Assembly (NCBI GenBank): GCA_951800645.1
Contig: CATOIK010000010.1
Coordinates: forward strand, 1-64,000
Reading direction: 5' to 3'
DNA length: 64,000 nucleotides
Source of the DNA: an uncultured Eubacteriales bacterium
GTDB lineage: Bacteria; Bacillota; Clostridia; Lachnospirales; Lachnospiraceae
The translations under genes and the position numbers were made by a program. A model generated the notes under the pieces. The model was not told the origin of the DNA and made no database searches. It saw only the letters and a program-made list of their open reading frames with translations. This document shows positions 1 through 11,668 of the stretch, piece by piece (position 1 is the first letter of the stretch; each line of letters starts with the position of its first letter).

Positions 1-485
1 TCAAGACCACTGGCAAGGAGAAAAACTACGAGCTGGTAGAGTATGTCAACGATGTAAACCGGAAATACACAGAAGTCTTGATGGAACTGAACATCAATGG
101 TATCATGGATACAGCGTACTCTTACGGCGACCAGAGATTGACCAACGAGCGTTTCACCGGATGGACAGGTTACTATACTTACGATCCCAGAGGCAGCGTA
201 ACCGGAGTAACCGATGATAAGGGTATGATCTGGCAGTCCTACCGCTATAATGCCAATGGAGAGATTACCTTCGGTAAGCCCCAGTACAACAATATTTACT
301 CCTACAATGCCGAAAGCTATAATCCCAATATCCAGGCCCAGTATCTGCGAGCACGGTACTATAGCCCGGAGACTGCCAACTTCCTGATAGAAGATTCGTA
401 CCTTGGCAATATCACAGATCCGCTGACCCTGAATCGGTATAATTATGTTAAGAGCAGTCCGCTGAATTATATTGATCCAAGTGGA
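1..485 (+). repeat. rhs core-end direct repeat, copy A
   Basis: This block and 2196-2680 align base for base without gaps (constant offset 2195) with only scattered differences. The similarity stops at the DPSG codons, where the tips diverge. This is the pattern left by exchange of C-terminal cassettes through homologous cores. Confidence 0.85.
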
Positions 486-1115
486 TATGATCCGTGGACA
501 TTTAAAATTGATGATTACTACTACATAGCTCCTGATGATAAAGAAAATAATATAGCTTTGAGTATAAGTGGTTTCTTTCCATTTGGTGATATGGCCATGA
601 TGTGGTTGGATGAAACAGTTCACGATATAGAATATTTTGATAATGAGGAAGCACAAGATAAGGCTCTTGAGGCGGTTGCTTTAGGTATAACAGGATTAGA
701 AACTAGGATTAATCTTTTAGCTAAGGCCGGGGTTATTGATGACGCAGCCAAATTAACAACTAAGATGAAGATCTTAGGGTGGATTGGAACAGGTATTGGT
801 ATATATGACTTGATAAAAAATGCCAGGTCTGATGCTTCCTATGTAAGTCAAATAACAATAGAATTGTATTCTCAGTTCCTTTATGATAAAGATAGAGACA
901 CTTTGATTTCAAGGTATTTTATGCTGTATGCTTTGGTGGATAAGGCTGTCGAAATGGGGGCGATTACTTATTGTAAGGGACATTTTTATAATGAACACGA
1001 GTTTGAAGTTATGCCTGGTAGCATATATATAGATTCTGAAAGATATCAAGAGGTAATGAATGAAATGAGATATTCGCCTCTGGATGTTTTAGAATTATTT
1101 CCGCAGAATTTGTAA
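3..1115 (+). CDS. RHS repeat protein, C-terminal part with variable tip (5' end outside window)
   Basis: The reading frame is already open at base 3, so this is the 3' end of a larger rhs gene; an internal TTG at 78 is not its start. Visible core motifs are YTYDPRGSVTGV, the hallmark YLRARYYSPETANF and the core terminus NYIDPSG. After that (about base 486) the sequence turns AT-rich and unlike the core: a roughly 210-residue tip with a hydrophobic stretch (KILGWIGTGIGIYDLI) and no toxin motif I recognise. In the RHS family the core forms a shell and releases a C-terminal toxin, usually against competing bacteria. The core end is repeated with little change at 2196-2680, and in part at 4056-4130 and 5820-6137. 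Toxin activity of this tip is inferred only from its position. Confidence 0.85.
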   Translation, partial: KTTGKEKNYELVEYVNDVNRKYTEVLMELNINGIMDTAYSYGDQRLTNERFTGWTGYYTYDPRGSVTGVTDDKGMIWQSYRYNANGEITFGKPQYNNIYSYNAESYNPNIQAQYLRARYYSPETANFLIEDSYLGNITDPLTLNRYNYVKSSPLNYIDPSGYDPWTFKIDDYYYIAPDDKENNIALSISGFFPFGDMAMMWLDETVHDIEYFDNEEAQDKALEAVALGITGLETRINLLAKAGVIDDAAKLTTKMKILGWIGTGIGIYDLIKNARSDASYVSQITIELYSQFLYDKDRDTLISRYFMLYALVDKAVEMGAITYCKGHFYNEHEFEVMPGSIYIDSERYQEVMNEMRYSPLDVLELFPQNL

Positions 1116-1183
1116 AGTAGTAATATGTTTCTTATATGGGCATGATATTGCAAAGTATAAAAAGTAAGTATATTAGGAGAGTG

Positions 1184-1366
1184 ATGAAAATTTTTATATT
1201 TAGGATATTGGGGACATCTTTATTGGGATTTTGCGCAGGATATATATGTTTCTGGATTAGAAATAAAATACTAGATCTTGGATTTAGAAAAAAGGAAAAC
1301 CTCTATTTTGCAATAATATCTGCACTATTTGCGATGGTATATGCTATTTACCTAGAATGTAAATAA
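1184..1366 (+). CDS. Small two-helix membrane protein, candidate immunity protein
   Basis: About 60 residues from ATG 1184, which has AGGAG four bases upstream; an in-frame ATG at 1136 gives 76 residues but no good ribosome binding site. The protein is basic, with two likely membrane helices (around FRILGTSLLGFCAGYICF and YFAIISALFAMVYAIY). It starts shortly after the end of the rhs gene, in the place where immunity genes of RHS tips normally sit, and is AT-rich like the tip. A membrane immunity protein would suit a membrane-acting toxin. I recognise no family, so the role rests on context and size. Confidence 0.5.
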   Translation: MKIFIFRILGTSLLGFCAGYICFWIRNKILDLGFRKKENLYFAIISALFAMVYAIYLECK

Positions 1367-1599
1367 GAAGGATAAAGCATAATATAAGGGGATATGCACC
1401 GAATGATTGCAAACCGGGAAACTGGTAAAAAAGCGGTGTCAAGCTTGCTTGTTAACCACTTTTTACCAGATTTCATATCGGAGGAATCTCCGATGTTTCT
1501 TGTTTGTCAAACACGCACAAGAAGATGCTCCATTCTGAACAACTACAAAAGATGTAAAGAACAACCATCTAATTATATGAGGGGAAGTTATACAATAAC

Positions 1600-1842
1600 A
1601 TGGCGAAAATGAATTGTAAATGTGGTTATATTTTGAGTATTACACAAGTACCAAATGATATTTAATTAAGGGTTTTTACAGATACAGAGTGGGATAGAAT
1701 ACTGGATTGTGAAATTATAGAGACATGGAAAATCCCACTACCTAAATATGATGTTTGGAAATGCCCTAATTGTAATAGAATATATGTATTTGAAGACGAT
1801 AATGATTCGCCTATTATAGTCTATTGTTTAGAAAAAGTGTGA
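1600..1842 (+). pseudogene. Zinc-ribbon-like small protein gene with an in-frame stop
   Basis: From ATG 1600 (AGGGGAAG upstream) the frame reads MAKMNCKCGYILSI and meets TAA at 1663. The same frame then stays open for 58 more codons to TGA 1842, with a second cysteine pair in WKCPNCNRIY. The two CxC / CxxC pairs would make a zinc ribbon of about 80 residues. The change fits one substitution (for example GAA to TAA before TTAAGG). The position behind an RHS tip suggests an orphan immunity gene. Sequencing error is a possible alternative explanation. Confidence 0.5.
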
Positions 1843-1870
1843 TATGAGGCTATAAAAAGTCTCATAAAGA

Positions 1871-1919
1871 ACCGCCATGATGATACCGATGGGTGTCTGT
1901 CATGGCGGTTTTCATTTTT
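1871..1919 (+). terminator. Rho-independent terminator
   Basis: A perfect 10-bp stem, ACCGCCATGA (1871-1880) with TCATGGCGGT (1900-1909), is followed by TTTTCATTTTT. It closes the first toxin/immunity unit. Confidence 0.8.
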
Positions 1920-2110
1920 GGTGCTCATGGTGGCGTATATTTCTAAAGGGTAAAAGTTCCAAATTCACTTGGTTATTTACTGTTTACTTTGGTCTGCGTA
2001 TTTTTCGACACTATCCATATTGGTTCATCTGACCAGCTATGCCGTAGACTTAAACCGTCGGGTAATGGAGATGACCCAGAAAAACGGCGGAAAGTATCAG
2101 TATACCTACG

Positions 2111-3225
2111 ATGCTGTCCATCCAGAACCAGAGCGGCATCCTGTTCCCCATTGACGGCGAAGTTTCCGAACTGGAAGCTGAGTTAATCGGCCTGATTAAG
2201 ACCACGGGCAAGGAGAAGAACTACGAGCTGGTAGAGTATGTGAACGATGTAAACCGGGAATATACGGAAGTCTTGATGGAACTGAATATCAATGGTATCA
2301 TGGATACAGCGTACTCCTACGGCGACCAGAGACTGACTAACGAGCGTTTCACCGGATGGACAGGTTACTATACTTACGATCCCAGAGGCAGCGTAACCGG
2401 AGTAACCGATGATAAGGGTATGATCTGGCAGTCCTACCGCTATAATGCCAACGGAGAGATTACCTTCGGCAAGCCCCAGTACAACAATATTTACTCCTAC
2501 AACGCCGAAAGCTATAATCCCAATATCCAGGCCCAGTATCTGCGAGCACGGTACTACAGCCCGGAGACCGCCAACTTCCTGACAGAAGATTCGTACCTTG
2601 GAAATATCACAGATCCGCTGACACAGAATTGGTATAACTATGCAAAGAGCAGTCCTCTGAATTATGTGGATCCCAGTGGACAGTATAGTGTGGAAGAATT
2701 AGGAACAGATATGTGGAATACATCTATTGATTTGGAAATTATGTATTTAAGAGGTGTTTTGCATATATGGGAAACCATAACTGGGTCTTCAACAATTACG
2801 ATAGGTGTTAATGGAAATATTGCTGCAGGGGGGCAGGTTCTGGAAGTATAGGAATTACTCTTGATATGGAAGGTAATATAGCTGTACAAGGTACCCTATC
2901 AGGTGGTGTGGGATTTCCAGGTGGGTCAGTTGCGTTATATATGACATTCACAGATGCTCCATTATATGAAAATTTAGAAGGTTCGGGAATTCAGGTTGGA
3001 GGATCGATATCCCATGCGGTATCTTTAGGAATTGACTTTGTGTTTGTTCCGAATGGCGAGGAACCAGGTTTTACTGGATTATCGGTTTTATTGGGAATAG
3101 GATATTCTCCAGTTATAGTAGAAGGTCATGCGGAGTTTGGAATTACATGGACACTGTTACATGGAAATATATTTGAAGCACTGGAAGAATTAAAGATTGA
3201 GGATTGTTATATGCACGATAGTTGA
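2111..3225 (+). pseudogene. Displaced RHS cassette with glycine-rich tip, truncated and frameshifted
   Basis: The frame from 2111 carries the core end through NYVDPSG and a tip, and stops at 2851. The left end is a deletion junction: an RHS repeat remnant (LNRRVMEMTQKNG, KYQYTYDA; about 2047-2117) lies in another frame and is fused to the QNQSGILFPIDGE segment. A second defect lies in a run of six Gs at 2828-2833. Adding one G would read AAGGAGSGSIGITLDMEG and continue in the frame ending at 3225, giving a glycine-rich, probably beta-stranded tip (VGFPGGSVALYMTF, VGGSISHAVSLGIDF). No signal peptide or N-terminal RHS part is present, so it is probably silent unless recombined. The tip activity is unknown. 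Confidence 0.75.
2196..2680 (+). repeat. rhs core-end direct repeat, copy B
   Basis: Second copy of the core end, colinear with 1-485 without indels. Homology to the copy at 5820 extends further left, to about base 2118. Confidence 0.85.
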
Positions 3226-3273
3226 AGTTTTGTTTGTAATAATATCTATATAAGTAATGTGAGTTAATTAATT

Positions 3274-3328
3274 CTCCCCTTTTATGTAGTTAAGCAGATT
3301 AAAATGCTTATATAATATAAAAGGGGAG
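3274..3328. repeat. 12-bp perfect inverted repeat
   Basis: CTCCCCTTTTAT (3274-3285) and ATAAAAGGGGAG (3317-3328) are exact reverse complements around a 31-base AT-rich loop, just upstream of the gene at 3360. No T tract follows, so it is not a standard terminator. It could be an operator, an RNA fold in the leader, or the scar of a mobile element. Confidence 0.5.
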
Positions 3329-3359
3329 AAGGAAATTAAAATAATGCACGAGGGATGTA

Positions 3360-3890
3360 ATGAAAAAACATGAGATAAAATTAAATTGTTCATATGAATA
3401 TATAGAGGATTCATTTAAACAAAATGTAAAATTTTTACCAACGCCTCTATCCTTTTTTTTCCATCGTCAAGAACCTAATTTTGGAAAACTGGAATATAAT
3501 AGAATTTTATTACAAATAAATTTTGGTGCTATCAGATGTAAACGAGATTGGAAGTGGATATTAAATCAACAAATGGCACCAAGCCTGTTTGTTGGTGAAA
3601 TTGAAAGGATTAAAGATGGGCTAATTGTGCGATATTATTTCAGAAAAACTTTGTATGCGAGTATATTAGGTGTTATTGCTATTCTTGCAGGACTGGCTAG
3701 TTTAATGTTTGGAATAATGGGTAATAATAATTTTCCATTGGTAGCAGCAATAATAATGCTCATATGGTTTGGGGCATTTGGAATCTATGTGTTGTATATA
3801 CCTAAAATTGATAAGGTATGTTTAGTAGAAGTATTAAAAACATTGGCAAATGGAGAAAGACAAGAGTTTGACAGATTTTTACAAGACTAG
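3360..3890 (+). CDS. Membrane protein, candidate immunity protein of the glycine-rich tip
   Basis: A 176-residue protein starting at ATG 3360 with GAGGG six bases upstream. The N-terminal ~95 residues are soluble and basic. Two membrane helices follow (about residues 98-119 ASILGVIAILAGLASLMFGI and 124-145), then a short cytoplasmic tail. It is AT-rich like the preceding tip and directly follows it, which is the usual toxin-immunity order. The topology resembles bPH-like or YcxB-like small membrane proteins that serve as immunity proteins in polymorphic toxin systems, but I cannot place it in a family. Confidence 0.6.
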   Translation: MKKHEIKLNCSYEYIEDSFKQNVKFLPTPLSFFFHRQEPNFGKLEYNRILLQINFGAIRCKRDWKWILNQQMAPSLFVGEIERIKDGLIVRYYFRKTLYASILGVIAILAGLASLMFGIMGNNNFPLVAAIIMLIWFGAFGIYVLYIPKIDKVCLVEVLKTLANGERQEFDRFLQD

Positions 3891-3957
3891 ATTAAGGTGC
3901 AAGTTTACCAAGCTCTTGATTTTATTCTTTATTTCTTATGATGATTGAGTCATCAGT

Positions 3958-4106
3958 GAATACCACTATACTTATGATGACCGGGGCTTTATCGTGGGAG
4001 AGGACATAACCGAATCCCTGTACGCCTGGGATGATAAGCATGACGGCAAGCATGAATCACAGATCCGCTGACACCGAATCGGTATAATTATGTTAAGAGC
4101 AGTCCG
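3958..4106 (+). pseudogene. RHS fragments joined by deletion
   Basis: One frame from 3958 reads EYHYTYDDRGFIVGEDITES and on through LYAWDDKHDGKHE, an internal RHS-type segment that ends in a stop at the junction. From 4056 another frame carries the last part of the core (ITDPLTPNRYNYVKSSP), nearly identical to bases 412-470. Everything in between was deleted, leaving an out-of-frame join at about 4052-4056. This is the left edge of a third displaced cassette. Confidence 0.7.
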
Positions 4107-5084
4107 TTGAATTATATTGATCCAAGTGGACATTGGCCGAGTGTACCAACGGAAAGTACGATTGTGCGTAGAGATGATATTCCCATCACAAATGACAGCA
4201 ATGCGCAGAGTATAGATTGGGATGAATGGGTAGATTCTCTGGGTGGAGACTATTCGCAGAAAGAGAAGAACCATATTGTGGAAGCCATGAAAGTGGCAGA
4301 AATGGCAGGTGTGATGCAATCCTGTAATGGGATGGATGGAATGTCACATGACACCGATGCCGTGGATTTTATCCTGAATTTTGTTTTGGGTGCGACAGGA
4401 GCATTTATAAATTCTGGTGGAGGTTTATGGTACAAGATTACGGATGCAATCAATGATCTATATGGGAAAGATTATGAAACTCCTATAGAGTATTTAGAAA
4501 GCATTTCCACAAATAAGTTGGCATTTAATTTAGGCAGACTGGTAGGCGACATTGGAAGCCTTATTATGGGACTGAAGCTTATTTCTATAGGCGGAGGAGG
4601 GGCTTTGGGTGGAGCCGTTACCTCTCTTGCTACAGGGGGTGTATCATTAACAGTATCTGCTACAAGCATTGCAGTTGCGGCAGAGGGATTGAATATGACG
4701 GTTACAGCTGCCGGAGATATTATAGTAGCAGTAACAGCGACAGGAACCATTATTTCACAGATGTCGAGCAGTAAAGGATCGGAATCTGGTAGTGGTAAGG
4801 CGGATTCTGATTCTAAAGAGGTAAATGTACCTAAGAATGTTGAACGGCAAGCGAAAAAATTAAGTCCAGAGGCTAAAAAGGGATATGATAAAGCTATAGA
4901 TGCATTAAAGAGTGGAGATACTAGAGGGTTAAATGATCATCCATTAAGTGGAAATAGAAGTGGACAGCGGGCTATTGACATTAAAGGGACGGGAAAAGGA
5001 CGAGGAGCTGGAAGAATTATTTATGAGTATGGAGAAAATGGGGAAATCAACATTATTGAAATACTAACGGATCATAATTATTAA
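4107..5084 (+). CDS. RHS C-terminal tip, displaced cassette with ParE/RelE-like end
   Basis: 325 residues from TTG 4107; a stop at 4053 in the same frame shows that the core is missing and that initiation, if any, is weak. It begins with the core terminus LNYIDPSG. A helical linker and a long hydrophobic Gly/Ala/Thr region follow (about residues 145-215; LGGAVTSLATGGVSLTVSA), then a Ser/Gly/Lys spacer, and an ~80-residue end with LSPEAKKGYDKAIDAL, GRIIYEYGENG and IIEILTDHNY. The end resembles the BECR fold of RelE/ParE/colicin-type RNases (a basic core with an arginine strand and a terminal DH-Y), which would make it an RNase tip. That assignment is pattern-based only. With no export or shell part it is probably a reserve cassette. 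Confidence 0.65.
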   Translation: MNYIDPSGHWPSVPTESTIVRRDDIPITNDSNAQSIDWDEWVDSLGGDYSQKEKNHIVEAMKVAEMAGVMQSCNGMDGMSHDTDAVDFILNFVLGATGAFINSGGGLWYKITDAINDLYGKDYETPIEYLESISTNKLAFNLGRLVGDIGSLIMGLKLISIGGGGALGGAVTSLATGGVSLTVSATSIAVAAEGLNMTVTAAGDIIVAVTATGTIISQMSSSKGSESGSGKADSDSKEVNVPKNVERQAKKLSPEAKKGYDKAIDALKSGDTRGLNDHPLSGNRSGQRAIDIKGTGKGRGAGRIIYEYGENGEINIIEILTDHNY

Positions 5085-5096
5085 AGGAGAGCAGTT

Positions 5097-5417
5097 ATGA
5101 AAATGCAACACTTACTTATTGAAGGATATTGTGATGGAAAAGACGGAGAGAAAGGTTATCCTTGTCAAAATACTTTAACATTAGGGTTACATTGCTTAGA
5201 ATGTCCACAGTTTAGTTATTCTAAATGTCCAAATGAAATTGCATTATCAAATGATGATGGTGTAGTTAAAAGTCAGGAAGATTTTATAGGATTTGGAGGT
5301 GAGATGGAACCAGAAGATATAGAAAAAAGAGACGAATATATTTCAATTTGGAAAGATATTTGCAGAAAAAAAATAAATGAAGCATATGATGAATATATTC
5401 GTTATATTTTATCATAA
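5097..5417 (+). CDS. Cysteine-containing small acidic protein, candidate immunity protein
   Basis: 106 residues, ATG 5097 with AAAGGAGA upstream, 12 bases after the stop of the 4107 tip. Acidic and without a membrane helix. Cysteines are grouped in the first half (YCDG, YPCQN, HCLECPQFSYSKCPN), suggesting a metal site. The acidic helical end (EPEDIEKRDEYISIWKDI) fits a protein that masks a basic RNase tip. Close spacing and shared AT-rich composition argue for a toxin-immunity pair with the upstream gene. No family recognised. Confidence 0.6.
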   Translation: MKMQHLLIEGYCDGKDGEKGYPCQNTLTLGLHCLECPQFSYSKCPNEIALSNDDGVVKSQEDFIGFGGEMEPEDIEKRDEYISIWKDICRKKINEAYDEYIRYILS

Positions 5418-5429
5418 AAAGAATAATGG

Positions 5430-5465
5430 GGCTGTCGTACTAGTAATTAGTGCGCAGCCTCTTTT
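5430..5465 (+). terminator. Possible rho-independent terminator
   Basis: GGCTG (5430-5434) pairs with CAGCC (5455-5459), with partial pairing inside, and TCTTTT follows. The stem is imperfect. Confidence 0.4.
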
Positions 5466-5524
5466 CAGTGCAAAAAGTTACAGCCAGATTTTGAAAAGTC
5501 TGGCTGTTGGTGTAAAATATAAGT

Positions 5525-6172
5525 ATGCGAATCCCTATATTATTACACAAGAATTTTACTTACGAAACCTCGGAAACCGAAGCTGTTTCCGAGGTTAAGA
5601 ACAGCAAGAAGGATAAGGAAGATAAGTCCAATAACGGCAATAAGGACAAAGATAAAGGCAATAACGGCAACGATAAGAACAACGGCGTTGGCAACGGCAA
5701 AGATAAAACGAATAACGGAAACTCAGGCAACAATGGCAACAACGGAAACACCTCTACCGGCTGCAATAACGATAACAATGGAAATGCTAACGGTAACACC
5801 AACAACATCGGAGGAAGCCAGAACCAGAGCGGCATCCTGTTCCCCATAGACGGCGAAGTTTCCGAACTGGAAGCCGAGCTGATCGGTATGATCAAGACCA
5901 CCGGCAAAGAAAAAAACTACGAGCTGGTAGAGTATGTCAACGATGTAAACCGAGAGTACACAGAAGTCTTGATGGAACTGAATATCAATGGTATTATGGA
6001 TACAGCGTACTCTTACGGCGACCAGAGACTGACGAATGAGCGCTTTACCGGATGGACAGGTTACTACACTTATGATCCCAGGGGCAGCGTAACCGGAGTG
6101 ACCGACAGAAAGGGTATGATCTGGCAGTCCTATCGGAGAGAGTTTCAAGTTTTGTGTAAACTGAAAAACTGA
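5525..6172 (+). pseudogene. RHS fragment with Asn/Gly/Lys/Asp-rich linker, tip lost
   Basis: An open frame of 215 codons without a proper beginning or end. It holds TYETSETEAVSEV, about 70 residues of low complexity made mainly of N, G, K and D (bases 5600-5810), then the QNQSGILFPIDGE segment and the core through GMIWQSYR. At about 6137 homology to the other copies stops and the frame closes after a foreign tail (REFQVLCKLKN). The core end and the toxin tip are missing, apparently replaced by sequence next to a transposase remnant. It shows what lies just before the core end in an intact member of this rhs family. Confidence 0.75.
5820..6137 (+). repeat. rhs core-end direct repeat, copy C (truncated)
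   Basis: Colinear with 2118-2443 and, from about 5892, with 1-246. It breaks off at the codons for QSYR. Confidence 0.8.
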
Positions 6173-6183
6173 TATAAGATATG

Positions 6184-6318
6184 TCATGGGAGTGTCCCAA
6201 AAGAAGGATCCCCACAGTTGCTCATCTTATCGATATTTTCCATCTCAGTATCTCTGGGATGAAGAGTATATTTAATATCTTCATAATAGTCAGCAAAAAT
6301 TTTCTGTAATACATTCAT
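6184..6318 (-). pseudogene. Transposase N-terminal remnant (IS91-like)
   Basis: On the minus strand, ATG at 6318 opens a 44-residue frame, MNVLQKIFADYYEDIKYTLH followed by a part ending NIDKMSNCGDPSFGTLP. From memory this resembles the start of IS91-family transposases, just before their zinc-binding CxxC region; here it ends at a stop before any zinc site. The rest of the element is absent. The tract at 6139-6170 (tttcaagttttgtgtaaac) could be the end of a different insertion sequence. It marks the right edge of the rhs debris. Confidence 0.5.
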
Positions 6319-6391
6319 AAGACTATTATGAGGGAAAGAGACACAAAAAGAAATCCCCTAATCCCCTCGAGATTGAGGGGCAGGGGAGTTG

Positions 6392-6412
6392 AATAGGCGA
6401 AGCCTATTTTGT
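6392..6412 (+). terminator. Short strong hairpin
   Basis: AATAGGC GAA GCCTATT is a perfect 7-bp stem with a 3-base loop followed by TTGTGTT. It sits just beyond the stop of the minus-strand gene at 6432 and could end transcription from either side. Another G/C-rich inverted repeat (CCCCT / AGGGG) lies at 6356-6386. Confidence 0.5.
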
Positions 6413-6431
6413 GTTAAAGTGGAATGGAGAT

Positions 6432-7556
6432 TTATGCGCCCTGGACAGCGATTCCGTTCACCTCAACTCCGCCGTCAATGGCAATCACCAGGCACTGGCG
6501 GCCATCAATTTCTCTGGTTTCTACCAGGTCGGCCCGGTCCGGGTTGACCTTTACGATAACATCCGGGGTCTTTACTTCAAAGGCCCTGGTGTTTATGATG
6601 TTGCTGGCCAGGATGGCAGCCCGCTCTCCGGCAGTTTCATCGAAGGTTTTGTCAAAGGATTCCAGGTGCGTTTCTTCTACGCCGCTGTTTTCCAACAGGG
6701 AACGAACCTGGTATTTATCCAGCATCAGCGGTTCCGGCTCATCTTTATGTTCTTCCAGCATCTCGCTTAAATTTTCATGGATGGTTTTTACGGTCTCATA
6801 GCTGCAGGCCTCTCCCAGAGTTTCCTCGATAATGGTCTGGAAGGACTCCTTCTGGAATCCGGCAGGAAGGGGAATGGGGCAGCCTAACATCTGCTCAATG
6901 AAAACATCGTGAAGGTCGTTCACATCCTTGGAGTAGAACAGAGAGGCGTGAAGGTCTGTAGAACGGTCGTTAAAGGCGGGGAATAAAAAGCCCAGCTCAG
7001 GCATTCCCACTACCCAGTCCCGCACCCGGTTCTGGAAGGCATGTTCCAGCTCATTGTAGCTGAGGCCAGGTTTGGATAAGTCTACAGGGCAGACGGAGCA
7101 GAGTATGTAGCTGTAAACCTCGTCGGAGGCATCTTCCATCTCCAGTCCGTCTGAGGTTTTTCCTGGGATGTCGTAGGCGTCGTGGATCAGAAGAATCAAA
7201 TAGTTTCCTACATAGTCATAGGCCTGGATGACCCGGTCATAGAATGCCTCTAACAGGGCGTCATCCTGAAGCTTGCTGTTTCGCAGTTGTAAAAGGAACT
7301 GGTGAGGGCCGTCCTCCGTCTCTGCTTCCAGAGGAAATTCCAGGTTTAACAGGTTCCGGCCCAGGGTGCCGGATAAGTTTTTGCGGAGGATCTCAAAATA
7401 TTTGAACATATCTTCCTCAGGCAGAGAAAGAAAGGCCTCCTTGAAGGTGGTTTTTTTATTTTTCTCTCCGTCCACATAGCAGCCGCAAATGCGGGAAATG
7501 GAACAGTTGGAGGGCGTGAACTGCCGCTTGATCTCAGAAATTTCTCGCTTTATCAT
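6432..7556 (-). CDS. DUF4317 domain-containing protein
   Basis: 374 residues, start at 7556 with AAGGAG upstream. It matches the DUF4317 family of Firmicutes as I know it: N-terminal KREISEIKRQF and the CGCYVDGEK motif near residue 25, an acidic helical middle, and a C-terminal VIVKVNPDRADLVETR with an IDGRQCLVI strand. It has no signal peptide or membrane segment, so it is cytosolic. No biochemical function is established that I know of. It has its own promoter and is transcribed divergently from gdpP. Confidence 0.85.
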   Translation of the reverse strand: MIKREISEIKRQFTPSNCSISRICGCYVDGEKNKKTTFKEAFLSLPEEDMFKYFEILRKNLSGTLGRNLLNLEFPLEAETEDGPHQFLLQLRNSKLQDDALLEAFYDRVIQAYDYVGNYLILLIHDAYDIPGKTSDGLEMEDASDEVYSYILCSVCPVDLSKPGLSYNELEHAFQNRVRDWVVGMPELGFLFPAFNDRSTDLHASLFYSKDVNDLHDVFIEQMLGCPIPLPAGFQKESFQTIIEETLGEACSYETVKTIHENLSEMLEEHKDEPEPLMLDKYQVRSLLENSGVEETHLESFDKTFDETAGERAAILASNIINTRAFEVKTPDVIVKVNPDRADLVETREIDGRQCLVIAIDGGVEVNGIAVQGA

Positions 7557-7608: not shown

Positions 7609-7637
7609 ATTTTATACTAATTTTTGAGAAAAGACAA
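7609..7637 (-). promoter_or_regulatory. Sigma-A-type promoter of the DUF4317 gene
   Basis: On the minus strand TTGTCT, 17 bases, TAAAAT. It lies about 50 bases before the start codon and back to back with the gdpP promoter. Confidence 0.55.
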
Positions 7638-7672
7638 GAAGCAGGGAGCCCCTTCCTGTGAAGACGCGGATA

Positions 7673-7701
7673 TAGACGAACCTCTGTTTCTGTGGTATAA
7701 T
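7673..7701 (+). promoter_or_regulatory. Sigma-A-type promoter of gdpP
   Basis: TAGACG (7673-7678), 17 bases, TATAAT (7696-7701). It lies downstream of the first possible in-frame start of gdpP (7624), which supports ATG 7756 as the true start. Confidence 0.65.
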
Positions 7702-7755
7702 TGTATAGAATATGGCTGTTTAAAAGATTCGTGTAATCGAGTAAGGAGAACGGTT

Positions 7756-9804
7756 ATGAAAGAACATGAAAATATAAAAGTAAAGGGCTTGCTGAATATC
7801 TATCTGGGCTGGCCGCTGGTGCTCTCCTTATTTTTGGTGTGCGCCAACGGAGCGCTGCTGTTGGTAAACTGGCAGAGCGCCTGTGTGATGCTCCCATTTA
7901 CCATCTGCTATATCGGCTTTGCAGTCTGGCTCTGGCTTTACGGCCGGAAGCGGGTGCTGGGCGGCCTGGTGGAGTTTTCGGCAGAGTACGCCTGGATTCA
8001 GAAGCAGCTTCTGACGGATATGGCTCTGCCCTATGCCCTGGCAGATGACGAAGGCCGTCTGGTATGGATGAACGATGCTTTTCAGGCGGTTCTGGAACGG
8101 GAGAAGGGAAGCAGCAAACATCTTCTGAACCTGTTTCCAGAAGTAACGAAACAGGATTTTGAAGTGGAAAATGGGGCGGTCAGCGTTCATACCTCCTTCG
8201 GGAATCATAAATATCAGATGGATTTACAGCCTATCTATGTCAGCGGCACGGAGGAGGAAGACATCCAGGCCCTCATTGGCAGGGAAAAGCTGCTGGCCAT
8301 ATATTTGTTTGATGAAACGGAGATTCTTCGCTGCAGGCAGGAAGTTACCGATGAAAAAATGGTAGCAGGCCTGGTTTATCTGGACAACTATGACGAGGCG
8401 TTAGAGAGCGTGGAAGAAGTACGCCGCTCCCTTTTAACGGCGCTGATTGACCGGAAGATCAACAAATACATCGGTTCCATGGAAGGCGTAGTAAAGAAGC
8501 TGGAGAAAGACAAATATTTCTTTACTGTCAAGCAGAAATACATGGAGCAGATTCAGGAGGAGCGTTTCTCTATCCTGGAGGATGTGAAGGCGGTTAATAT
8601 CGGAAATGAGATGGCGGTTACCTTAAGTATCGGTATTGGTATGAACGGGGAAAGCTATGCTCAGAACTATGACAATGCCCGCACCTCCATTGATATGGCC
8701 TTGGGCCGCGGCGGAGACCAGGCAGTGGTGAAGGACGGCAGCAAGATTCAGTATTACGGCGGCAAGTCCCAGCAGCAGGAGAAATCCACCCGCGTCAAGG
8801 CTCGTGTAAAGGCGCATGCCCTGCGGGAGCTGATGGAGACCAAGGATCATCTGCTGATTATGGGCCATAAGATGAGCGATATTGATTCCTTCGGCGCTGC
8901 CATCGGTATTTACCGGATTGCTACGGCGCTGAATAAAAAGTCCCATATTATCATCAATGAGATAACTTCATCTGTAGAGCCGATGATGAAGCGGTTTGTG
9001 GAGAATCCGGAATATCCGGAGGATCTGTTCTTGACCGGGGCTCAGGCGGCAGAGCTGGTGGACAGCAATACCATGCTGGTGGTGGTGGATGTAAACCGGC
9101 CCAGCATCACGGACGCGCCGGAGCTTTTAAAGATGGTAAAGACCATCGTAGTGCTGGATCATCACCGGCAAAGCAGCGAGATTATCACCAATCCGGTGCT
9201 TTCCTATGTGGAGCCTTATGCGTCTTCTGCCTGTGAGATGGTTGCAGAGGTTCTGCAGTATATTGCAGATGGAATCAAGATCAAGCCGGCAGAAGCAGAC
9301 GCCATGTACGCCGGGATTGTGATTGATACCAACAACTTTACGAACCAGACTGGCGTGCGCACCTTTGAGGCGGCGGCATTCTTACGGCGCTGCGGTGCAG
9401 ATGTAACACGGGTCCGGAAAATGTTCCGGGACGACATGGAAGAATACAGGGCCAGAGCAGCTACCATCATTTCTGCCGAGGTTTACCGGGAGTTTTTCTC
9501 CATTGGTATCTGTCCGGCAGACGGCCTGGCAAGTCCTACCATCGTAGGCGCCCAGGCGGCTAACGAGCTTTTGGAAATCCGGGGCATCAAGGCATCGGTA
9601 GTGTTTACTCCTTACCACGGCGCTATTTATGTCAGCGCCCGCTCCATCGATGATGTAAATGTGCAGGTGATGATGGAAAAACTGGGAGGCGGCGGTCATC
9701 GGACCATTGCAGGAGCTCAGTTAAAGGATATAACGGTGGATGACGCCAAGAAACAAATTAAAGAAGTAATTGACGAGATGTTACAGAAGGGAGAAGTATC
9801 ATAA
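7756..9804 (+). CDS. gdpP: GdpP/YybT-type cyclic-di-AMP phosphodiesterase
   Basis: 682 residues from ATG 7756 (AAGGAGA upstream). Two N-terminal membrane helices (about residues 14-55) are followed by a PAS-like domain, a degenerate GGDEF domain, and a DHH/DHHA1 module with [28 protein letters not shown] and [12 protein letters not shown] near the end. In this family the DHH/DHHA1 part cleaves c-di-AMP to pApA, controlling cell-wall and potassium homeostasis. The metal-ligand motifs are intact, so it should be active. It is the first gene of the conserved gdpP-rplI-dnaB run, and its stop overlaps the next start (TAATG). Confidence 0.93.
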
Positions 9805-10250
9805 TGGATATTGTATTATTAGAAGATGTGAAGGCTCTTGGAAAGAAGGGCCAGATAGTAAAGGTAAACGATGGCTATGCCCGCAACTTTATTCTGCCCA
9901 AAAAGCTGGGCGTAGAGGCAACGCCGAAGAACTTAAACGACTTAAAGCTTCAGAAGGCCAATGCTGAAAAGGTGGCGGCAGAGCAGTTGGCGGAGGCAAA
10001 GGCGCTGGCGGAGAAAATCGGAAATTTAAGCGTTACCCTGAAGATGAAGGCCGGCGAGGGCGGAAGGGCCTTCGGTTCTGTTTCCGGAAAGGAAATTGCG
10101 GCTGCAGTGAAAGCGCAGCTTAACCTGGAAATTGATAAAAAGAAACTGGTGCTGCCGGAGCCTCTTAAGACTTTTGGAACCCATGAGGTTCCGGTAAAGC
10201 TGCACAAGGATGTGACAGCAAAGCTGGCAGTTAAGGTAACGGAAGCATAA
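9804..10250 (+). CDS. rplI: 50S ribosomal protein L9
   Basis: 148 residues, normal length for L9. The N-terminal rRNA-binding part [19 protein letters not shown] and [10 protein letters not shown] is typical, followed by the long central helix ([18 protein letters not shown]) and the C-terminal domain with [13 protein letters not shown]. It binds 23S rRNA near the L1 stalk. Its ATG shares a base with the gdpP stop, implying translational coupling. Confidence 0.97.
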
Positions 10251-10270
10251 CATCGTGATGCGCAGACAGA

Positions 10271-10303
10271 GCCGCAGCTTTTCCGGGGAACCGGAGCTGC
10301 GGC
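10271..10303 (+). other. Intergenic stem-loop between rplI and dnaB
   Basis: GCCGCAGCT (10271-10279) pairs perfectly with AGCTGCGGC (10295-10303). No T tract follows, so it more likely tunes mRNA processing or stability between rplI and dnaB than terminates. Confidence 0.5.
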
Positions 10304-10333
10304 TAAAACTTACAGACAGGAGAGAAACGGACA

Positions 10334-11668
10334 ATGGATGAAGCCTTGATGAAGCGGGTGCTTCCCCACAGCGTGGAGGCGGAACAGTCAGTAATCGGTT
10401 CCATGCTGATGGATAAAGAGGCAATCGTAAGCGCCTCGGAGATTGTGACGGCTGCAGACTTTTACCAACAGCAGTACGGCGTCATGTTCGAGGCTATGGT
10501 AGAGCTGTTTAATGAAGGCAAGCCGGTGGATTTGATTACCCTTCAGAACCGGTTAAAGGAGAAGGATGTGCCGCCGGAGGTCAGCAGCCTGGAGTTTGTG
10601 CGGGATATTCTTACTACCGTGCCTACCTCGGCTAATGTAAAGTCCTATGCCAACATTGTCCGGGAGAAGGCGGTTCTGCGGAGATTGATCCGGGTAAATG
10701 AGGACATTGCCAACACCTGCTATGTGGGAAAAGAGCCTTTGGAGCAGATTCTGGCTCAGACGGAGAAGTCTGTTTTTGACCTGCTTCAGAGCCGCAGTTC
10801 CGGAGATTTTGTGCCGATTCGGCAGGTGGCTTTAAATGTATTAGAGAAGATTGAGACTGCGTCTAAGACCCAGGGTACGGTAACCGGCGTTCCTACCGGA
10901 TTCATTGACCTGGATTATAAGACTTCCGGTATGCAGCCGTCAGACTTTGTGCTGATTGCAGCCCGTCCTTCCATGGGTAAAACGGCGTTTGTGCTGAATC
11001 TGGTGGATCATGTGGCAGTACGCAAGGGCCTTCCCTGTATGATTTTCAGCCTGGAGATGTCCAAGGAGCAGCTAGTAAACCGTATGCTGGCTATGGAATC
11101 CAATGTGGATTCCCAGAAGCTGCGGACCGGAAATCTGACGGATTCGGACTGGGACGCCATTGTGGAAGGTATCGGCGTCATCGGAAATTCCAAGCTGGTA
11201 ATTGATGATACCCCTGGCATTTCCATTACGGAGTTGCGTTCCAAGTGCAGAAAGATGAAGCTGGAGCAGGGACTTAGCATGGTAATCATCGACTACCTGC
11301 AGCTGATGAGCGGCAGCGGCGGAAAGAGCAGTGAGAGCCGTCAGCAGGAGATTTCTGAGATTTCCCGTTCTTTAAAGGCTTTGGCCCGAGAGATGAATGC
11401 GCCGGTAGTGGCCCTGTCCCAGTTGAGCCGTGCCTGCGAGACCAGAACGGACCATCGCCCCATGCTTTCGGACCTGCGTGAGTCCGGCGCCATTGAGCAG
11501 GATGCGGATGTGGTAATGTTCTTATACCGTGATGATTATTATAACAAAGATACGGATACGCCTAATATTGCCGAGGTAATTATTGCCAAACAGCGTAACG
11601 GCCCTATTGGCACAGTGAATTTGCTGTGGCAGCCTGAGTTTACGAAGTTTGTGAATTTGGCGAAATAA
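10334..11668 (+). CDS. dnaB: Replicative DNA helicase DnaB
   Basis: 444 residues, the usual length, no intein. N-terminal domain with PHSVEAEQSVIGSML (primase/loader contact), linker, then the RecA-like domain with Walker A ARPSMGKTAF (about residues 209-218), the MVIIDYLQLM Walker B (about 315-324), ALSQLSRACE and the arginine-finger region RESGAIEQDADVV. It unwinds DNA at the fork as a hexamer. ATG 10334 has AGGAGAG upstream. Position after rplI is conserved in Firmicutes. Confidence 0.97.
   Translation: MDEALMKRVLPHSVEAEQSVIGSMLMDKEAIVSASEIVTAADFYQQQYGVMFEAMVELFNEGKPVDLITLQNRLKEKDVPPEVSSLEFVRDILTTVPTSANVKSYANIVREKAVLRRLIRVNEDIANTCYVGKEPLEQILAQTEKSVFDLLQSRSSGDFVPIRQVALNVLEKIETASKTQGTVTGVPTGFIDLDYKTSGMQPSDFVLIAARPSMGKTAFVLNLVDHVAVRKGLPCMIFSLEMSKEQLVNRMLAMESNVDSQKLRTGNLTDSDWDAIVEGIGVIGNSKLVIDDTPGISITELRSKCRKMKLEQGLSMVIIDYLQLMSGSGGKSSESRQQEISEISRSLKALAREMNAPVVALSQLSRACETRTDHRPMLSDLRESGAIEQDADVVMFLYRDDYYNKDTDTPNIAEVIIAKQRNGPIGTVNLLWQPEFTKFVNLAK

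Follow-up and report, generated by a model that had tools for sequence, protein, structure and literature searches.

The RHS locus at the contig edge

The first 6.1 kb of the DNA analysed here (64,000 bases of contig CATOIK010000010.1 from an uncultured bacterium of the Lachnospiraceae, hereafter the window) very probably contain the 3' terminus of an RHS polymorphic-toxin locus and, beyond it, a decaying array of orphan toxin/immunity cassettes. Four pieces of one RHS core end lie in this region, all on the + strand, and three of them (copies 1-3) run in frame through the core terminus DPSG into unrelated C-terminal ends (tips). Orphan RHS arrays are an established kind of locus. Base 1 of the window is also base 1 of the contig (84,664 bases, from an assembly of 2.42 Mb that is 83% complete and divided into 36 contigs), and copy 1 of the core is cut by this edge, i.e. 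the assembly breaks inside the repeat. A 2033-aa rhs query against the same genome finds only the fragments 2026-2124, 3946-4059 and 5573-5830; the rest of rhs was not found in this incomplete assembly. The features of the region, with open reading frames (ORFs) where relevant, are as follows.

1..485, + strand: copy 1 of the RHS core end, truncated at the contig edge and ending in DPSG; TIGR03696 at 7.1e-12
486..1115, + strand: tip 1, 209 aa, unnamed; no Pfam family for window positions 3-1112
1136..1366, + strand: doubtful partner 1, an ORF of 61-76 aa with two weak hydrophobic stretches; no family above cut-off
1600..1842, + strand: small ORF with CxC and CxxC motifs, broken by a stop; presumably a former partner
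2027..2121, + strand: core piece from further upstream in rhs, the remnant of an internal deletion of ~2.4 kb
2122..2680, + strand: copy 2 of the RHS core end, also ending in DPSG; differs from copy 1 at 27 of 483 bases; TIGR03696 at 5.2e-11
2681..3225, + strand: tip 2, glycine-rich, in two ORFs (2111-2851 and 2866-3225)
3360..3890, + strand: partner 2, 176 aa, with two strong hydrophobic stretches; begins 134 bases after tip 2
3951..4055, + strand: core piece, the remnant of an internal deletion of ~1.5 kb
4056..4130, + strand: copy 3 of the RHS core end, reduced to its last 75 bases; 96% to copy 1; ends in DPSG
4131..4814, + strand: linker part of tip 3; 37% to L050 (Hungatella hathewayi WAL-18680), 29% to L039 and 39% to G172, with other ends there
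4815..5084, + strand: toxin part of tip 3, with a predicted RelE/YoeB fold
5097..5417, + strand: partner 3, 106 aa, acidic; 54% to the partner in G367, where six Cys are kept
5564..6136, + strand: copy 4, an Asn/Gly-rich linker plus core, lacking terminus and tip; starts at about 5564-5624
6137..6420, + strand: repeated-element remnant that ends copy 4; parts occur at three other places in the same genome

Core copies and their decay

A search of window positions 1-485 against their own assembly (E <= 0.001) returned four places including the query itself, the others being 2198-2680 (94%, E 2e-217), 5892-6135 (91%, 1.3e-94) and 4056-4130 (96%, 1.1e-28). A sequence-only reading made before this analysis had taken the core end to be repeated base for base at 2196-2680, which is incorrect, given that 27 of 483 bases differ. 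It had also placed partial repeats at 4056-4130 and 5820-6137; the first stands, and the second corresponds to the match at 5892-6135 within a copy 4 that in fact reaches from about 5564-5624 to 6136. Copies 1 and 2 both pass the cut-off of the NCBIfam family TIGR03696 (Rhs_assc_core), copy 3 falls below it (0.0021) and copy 4 matches no family. The tip-start motif PxxxxDPxG(L) is present in copies 1, 2 and 3 as PLNYIDPSG, PLNYVDPSG and PLNYIDPSG, respectively, with the final Leu not kept, and copy 3 retains 25 codons of the core end. Copy 4 was considered as a further cassette and rejected, as it has neither a DPSG terminus nor a tip. The array is of the kind proposed in the earlier reading but more worn than described there, and its cassettes are not intact.

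Copies 2-4 lack an N-terminus of their own and upstream rhs sequence is present only as fragments. The earlier view that only the first copy could belong to a full rhs gene is upheld for these three; copy 1 itself is cut by the contig edge. When aligned with the main rhs ORF of G017, a genome of the same genus, copy 2 corresponds to residues ~1191-1220 joined to ~2029 onward, and copy 3 to residues ~1660-1697 joined to ~2191 onward. By eye, only a few bases are shared at the deletion junctions. Tip 2 and the ORF at 1600-1842 are broken in frame, and these breaks may be either real mutations or sequencing errors.

The repeated element that ends copy 4 (6137-6420) recurs on contig 1 (85% over query positions 61-274 and 85% over query positions 6-51, ~1.6 kb apart) and on contig 4 (84% over query positions 1-51). 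By coordinates, an ORF for a Y2_Tnp transposase (3.7e-33) lies between the two contig 1 places, and the element is presumably an internally deleted mobile element. The recurrences are located at G000:C1 about 170003-171824 and G000:C4:150058-150112.

The tips are lower in GC (34.9, 38.3 and 41.5% for tips 1-3) than positions 6435-64000 of the window (50.3%); partners 2 and 3 have 29.9 and 29.0%, and core copies 1-4 have 46.0, 48.8, 40.0 and 47.0%. None of the seven tip and partner pieces matches another in blastp (E <= 1), in agreement with the earlier observation that the three copies with DPSG lead into unrelated AT-rich tips. PADLOC assigned none of eight proteins to a family, and the Pfam and NCBIfam scans of the window tips and partners gave only core matches, matches below cut-off and RelE_StbE at 0.034. 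A small immunity-type gene, proposed to follow each tip, is found after tips 2 and 3; the partner of tip 1 is doubtful and copy 4 has none.

Related loci and evolution of the core

Matches to the core are found in eight of 24 genomes of the genus, the window's own included. In G017, which is near-closed in two contigs, seven complete copies at 84-88% protein identity lie within 33.7 kb, with one broken piece among them. The first belongs to a 2473-aa ORF, the main rhs, and the remaining six copies form orphan cassettes. This main gene is itself split: a 764-aa ORF and the 2473-aa ORF align with residues 15-839 and 861 onward, respectively, of a 3242-aa frame in G172 (Hungatella hathewayi). The split point is at L033:3050-3102.

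The six orphan cores of G017 are about 0.67 to 3.2 kb long and start at varied points, and they end within 35 bases of each other at the tip boundary. A Pfam toxin domain is present in three of the six (LHH, 2.8e-25; EndoU, 1.7e-17; and Tox-REase-3, 1.8e-19, the last in an ORF after the core ORF), and a Pfam immunity family in two of the five partners scanned (SUKH and Imm7); three orphans and three partners have no Pfam family. In the sixth orphan (L035:8215-10460), the Tox-REase-3 ORF overlaps the end of the core ORF and the cassette is out of frame. Transposases (DDE_Tnp_1_4, IS66 and IS110) occur among or just after the cassettes. Contig 2 of G017 carries seven more core matches at 46-54%, at about 3218091-3235550 and 8815-9306, which gives G017 at least one further RHS array.

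Changes between core copies are predominantly synonymous. Copies 1 and 2 of the window are separated by 20.5 synonymous and 6.5 nonsynonymous changes, giving a ratio of nonsynonymous to synonymous rates (dN/dS) of 0.09, and the other two pairs of window copies give 0.09 and 0.06, values that come from few copies and a stretch of 483 bases or less. The main core of G017 against its six orphans gives 0.03-0.07. Such a bias is not expected to persist in untranslated fragments, and so the core pieces were probably in working genes until recently and displaced from them, or have been repaired from one. In a tree of 15 cores, for which five of the 31 loci from the relative search were taken and window copy 3 was left out as too short, a branch with support of 100/99 parts the three window copies from the seven G017 copies, with six of the 12 inner branches open.

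Tip 3 and its partner

Tip 3 is an intact frame of 317 aa, and partner 3 starts 12 bases after it. The last 89 residues adopt a BECR fold in the predicted structure, with helices followed by a four-stranded sheet; the model of the whole tip is poor outside residues 227-317 (mean predicted local distance difference test score, 47.2). At the sequence level the end of tip 3 reaches only 14.6 bits against the curated family RelE_StbE, the cut-off of which is 27.9 (0.034), and it has no match to the Pfam RelE models at E <= 1; a RelE profile was built from 13 of 19 RelE matches. Searches of the PDB sequences with tip 3 and with its end returned nothing credible. The terminal His-x-Tyr and an Arg of the third strand are kept, by sequence, in both known members. 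The model thus predicts for the tip 3 end a RelE/YoeB fold that Pfam misses, and the domain is most likely an RNase that would stop translation in the target cell. It is also quite conceivable, if not the view we favour, that a domain with the RelE-superfamily fold acts on another target, i.e. gyrase, as ParE does, or tRNA or rRNA, as do the characterised BECR-fold tips of contact-dependent growth inhibition (CDI) systems. Partner 3, for which neither Pfam nor NCBIfam gives a family at E <= 1, is presumably the immunity partner of tip 3.

Relatives of tip 3 were found in two other genomes among 397 drawn from the family. In G172, the linker (39%) lies within the 3242-aa RHS frame and is followed by another C-terminal end, and Clostridium clostridioforme AGR2157 (L039) has the linker with a third end. 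The toxin part is seen elsewhere only outside RHS, in G367, a genome of another genus, where it (73% over 94 residues) ends a 236-aa ORF and a relative of partner 3 (54%) follows. Upstream in G367 lies a VgrG-like protein (TIGR01646 at 1.3e-7, below cut-off). Two units that are near-identical by eye, each comprising a pentapeptide-repeat protein (one of which was scanned) and a short ORF, precede different toxins, namely the tip-3 domain and CdiA_C (7.1e-18), and a separate small ORF lies downstream of each toxin. From this one case, the toxin/partner pair appears to move between delivery systems. The G367 locus (L080, G367:C1:930000-946000, at 2451-4922 and 8388-10624) can be described as a cassette array near a VgrG-like gene, built on the principle of an orphan RHS array but within a different delivery system. 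The tip-3 end was found in its own genome only among 291 genomes drawn from the class, a draw that did not include G367; it has no relative among viral contigs and no match in plasmids or phages.

Tip 2 and its partner

A relative of tip 2 ends one of the G017 orphans (39.6% over 111 columns), and the partner there resembles partner 2 weakly (23% over 78 aa, E 2e-4). Partner 2 otherwise has only a sub-cut-off match to DUF2207_C (5.5e-4). In the family draw, tip 2 relatives occur in two other genomes, at four places in G135 and in G170. A single frame spans core and tip in G170 and at two of these places in G135 (L072, and L082 at 10004-10591); of the remaining two, L074 starts at the core terminus and L076 lacks an ORF of 120 aa. 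With a tip-2 profile, three other genomes were matched among 245 from the class, and in two of these, G602 and G478, the match stands with an RHS core by eye, with one stop in the G478 frame. The third match, in G593 (7.2e-4), is to a protein without an RHS core by eye and was set aside as chance. Tip 2 belongs to a recurring glycine-rich family of RHS ends that has no name in Pfam, NCBIfam or PADLOC.

The partners are of membrane type, with two hydrophobic stretches in the window and in the G017 and G135 relatives and one in G170, and none is predicted in the tips. Since its partners carry predicted membrane segments, tip 2 would most likely act at the membrane. In one RHS array of G135 (L082, G135:C25:8000-27000), the tip-2 family occupies four places, most of which have a similar membrane-type partner after the tip; tip and partner look to have diversified inside the array.

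Tip 1

Tip 1 has no name from Pfam, NCBIfam or PADLOC and, as far as sequence comparison goes, one relative, which ends the main rhs of G017 (27% over 155 aa, E 1e-12 in a single comparison). Tip 1 was found in its own genome only among the 397 family genomes drawn, which did not include G017, and the downstream piece of the interrupted ORF at 1600-1842 likewise in its own genome only among 200. The expectation that the same tips would be found on full rhs genes elsewhere is borne out in substance, tip 1 being in the split G017 main gene, tip 2 in RHS frames and tip 3, as linker only, in G172. As for the suggestion of new toxin families, tips 1 and 2 qualify only insofar as the three databases do not name them; tip 3 has a predicted RelE/YoeB-type fold.

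Proposed mechanism and alternative explanations

The anatomy, the homologies, the deletions, the predicted fold, the synonymous bias and the recurrence of the tips and of one toxin/partner pair come directly from the computation; export, toxicity, immunity, enzyme activity and swapping at this locus are inferences. The main rhs, truncated at the contig edge, would encode an exported protein that delivers the tip fused to its core, and each downstream cassette would be a former or spare tip with its partner behind a core piece. Homologous recombination through the shared core could then place a spare tip on the main gene. As the core of copy 2 shares 483 bp at 94% with copy 1, the tip 2 cassette could still recombine, but the tip that it would bring is broken; in copy 3 the tip is intact but only 75 bp of core end precede it, and in copy 4 the tip is missing. 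Swapping is probably no longer within reach of copies 3 and 4, and the array looks as if it is running down.

It is possible, though we consider it somewhat improbable, that storage of immunity genes is the main reason for keeping the cassettes, with tips that are dead or dying and partners that protect against relatives carrying these tips. This is a live rival: the reading frames of partners 2 and 3 are uninterrupted, whereas that of tip 2 is broken, most of the core is gone from copies 2 and 3, and copy 4 lacks a tip; expression of orphan cdiI has been reported for E. coli EC93 (PMC3150448). However, the 317-aa frame of tip 3 is unbroken, a stop interrupts the small ORF at 1600-1842 and the core copies are still biased towards synonymous change, and PMC3150448 itself asks why toxin fragments would be retained if the arrays were immunity stores. 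That the array as a whole serves no function at present, being only inert debris left by an old RHS gene and its duplications, is unlikely. The trimming of copies 2-4, the broken tip 2 and the repeated element that interrupts copy 4 would all fit such debris, but the reading frames of tips 1 and 3 and of partners 2 and 3 are open, and the dN/dS of the core copies is low.

Still less probable is that the deletions and the order of the cassettes are assembly artefacts of a repeat-rich locus. The assembly is incomplete and breaks inside a repeat, and that of C. clostridioforme AGR2157 also breaks in this core (L039, a contig of 6545 bases). Against this, an assembler would not be misled by the few bases that, by eye, the junctions share, tips 2 and 3 recur elsewhere together with their partners, and G017, assembled in two contigs, shows the same type of array.

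Comparison with known systems

The window array resembles the orphan rhs-CT/rhsI modules of enterobacteria, as described in PMC3150448 and PMC3967940, in having fragments of rhs core after the main gene, a DPxG end, unrelated tips, small partners, and tips that recur on full-length rhs genes elsewhere. For Salmonella, PMC3967940 describes an orphan tip that fuses to the main rhs via recombination over 522 bp at 95% identity, comparable with the 94% over 483 bp found here. The proposed swapping of tips onto the main rhs through the core thus has a precedent in known loci, and at the present locus it would work in the same way. The differences are that the window is from Lachnospiraceae, the final Leu of DPxGL is replaced by Tyr, Gln or His, copies 2-4 are heavily trimmed and the main gene is absent from the assembly. 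The orphan arrays treated in these two papers are enterobacterial, and the same cassette logic is found here in gut Lachnospiraceae; the synonymous bias of the core copies argues for traffic between spare and working positions.

Unlike type II toxins of the RelE/YoeB type, tip 3 is fused to an RHS core end and a linker, its partner, an acidic protein that contains Cys, matches no Pfam family at E <= 1, and the tip has itself no Pfam RelE match at that threshold. Compared by description only, it is alike in its RelE-type end to the Tox-RelE of polymorphic toxins (PMC3482391), for which the table lists RHS repeats and also Firmicutes; the text of that paper gives a single classical RelE instance (Paenibacillus elgii), whereas the table gives several phyla with Imm54. 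A RelE-type tip would link chromosomal toxin-antitoxin toxins to weapons against other cells, and its presence beside one partner in both an RHS and a VgrG-like context makes the transfer of modules between unrelated delivery systems testable. Tip 2, again by description only, resembles the pore-forming RHS or membrane-depolarising tips with membrane partners, Tse5 (PMC10684867 and PMC9637101) and EsxX (PMC12744356), in being glycine-rich and in having a partner with two hydrophobic stretches, and differs in lacking a predicted hydrophobic helix.

Tentatively, tip 3 and the 106-aa partner may represent a new mobile pair, in which a toxin of RelE/YoeB fold is combined with an acidic, Cys-containing immunity protein that replaces the RelB-type antitoxin, occurring at the end of an RHS protein and also in a cassette close to a VgrG-like gene that belongs to a contractile system. 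Tip 2 may, with the same reservation, represent a new glycine-rich, membrane-acting family of RHS tips across several families of Clostridia.

Intergenic and flanking sequence

The intergenic stretches 1116-2030, 3891-3952, 5418-5600 and 6130-6432 have no match in the loci compared except for 34 bases in L052, a locus in which no transposase is seen by eye; the RHS core query found no relative among viral contigs. The right flank of the array is ordinary, with a DUF4317 protein at 6435-7556 (5.1e-164) and a GdpP-like c-di-AMP phosphodiesterase with DHH/DHHA1 domains at 7624-9804.

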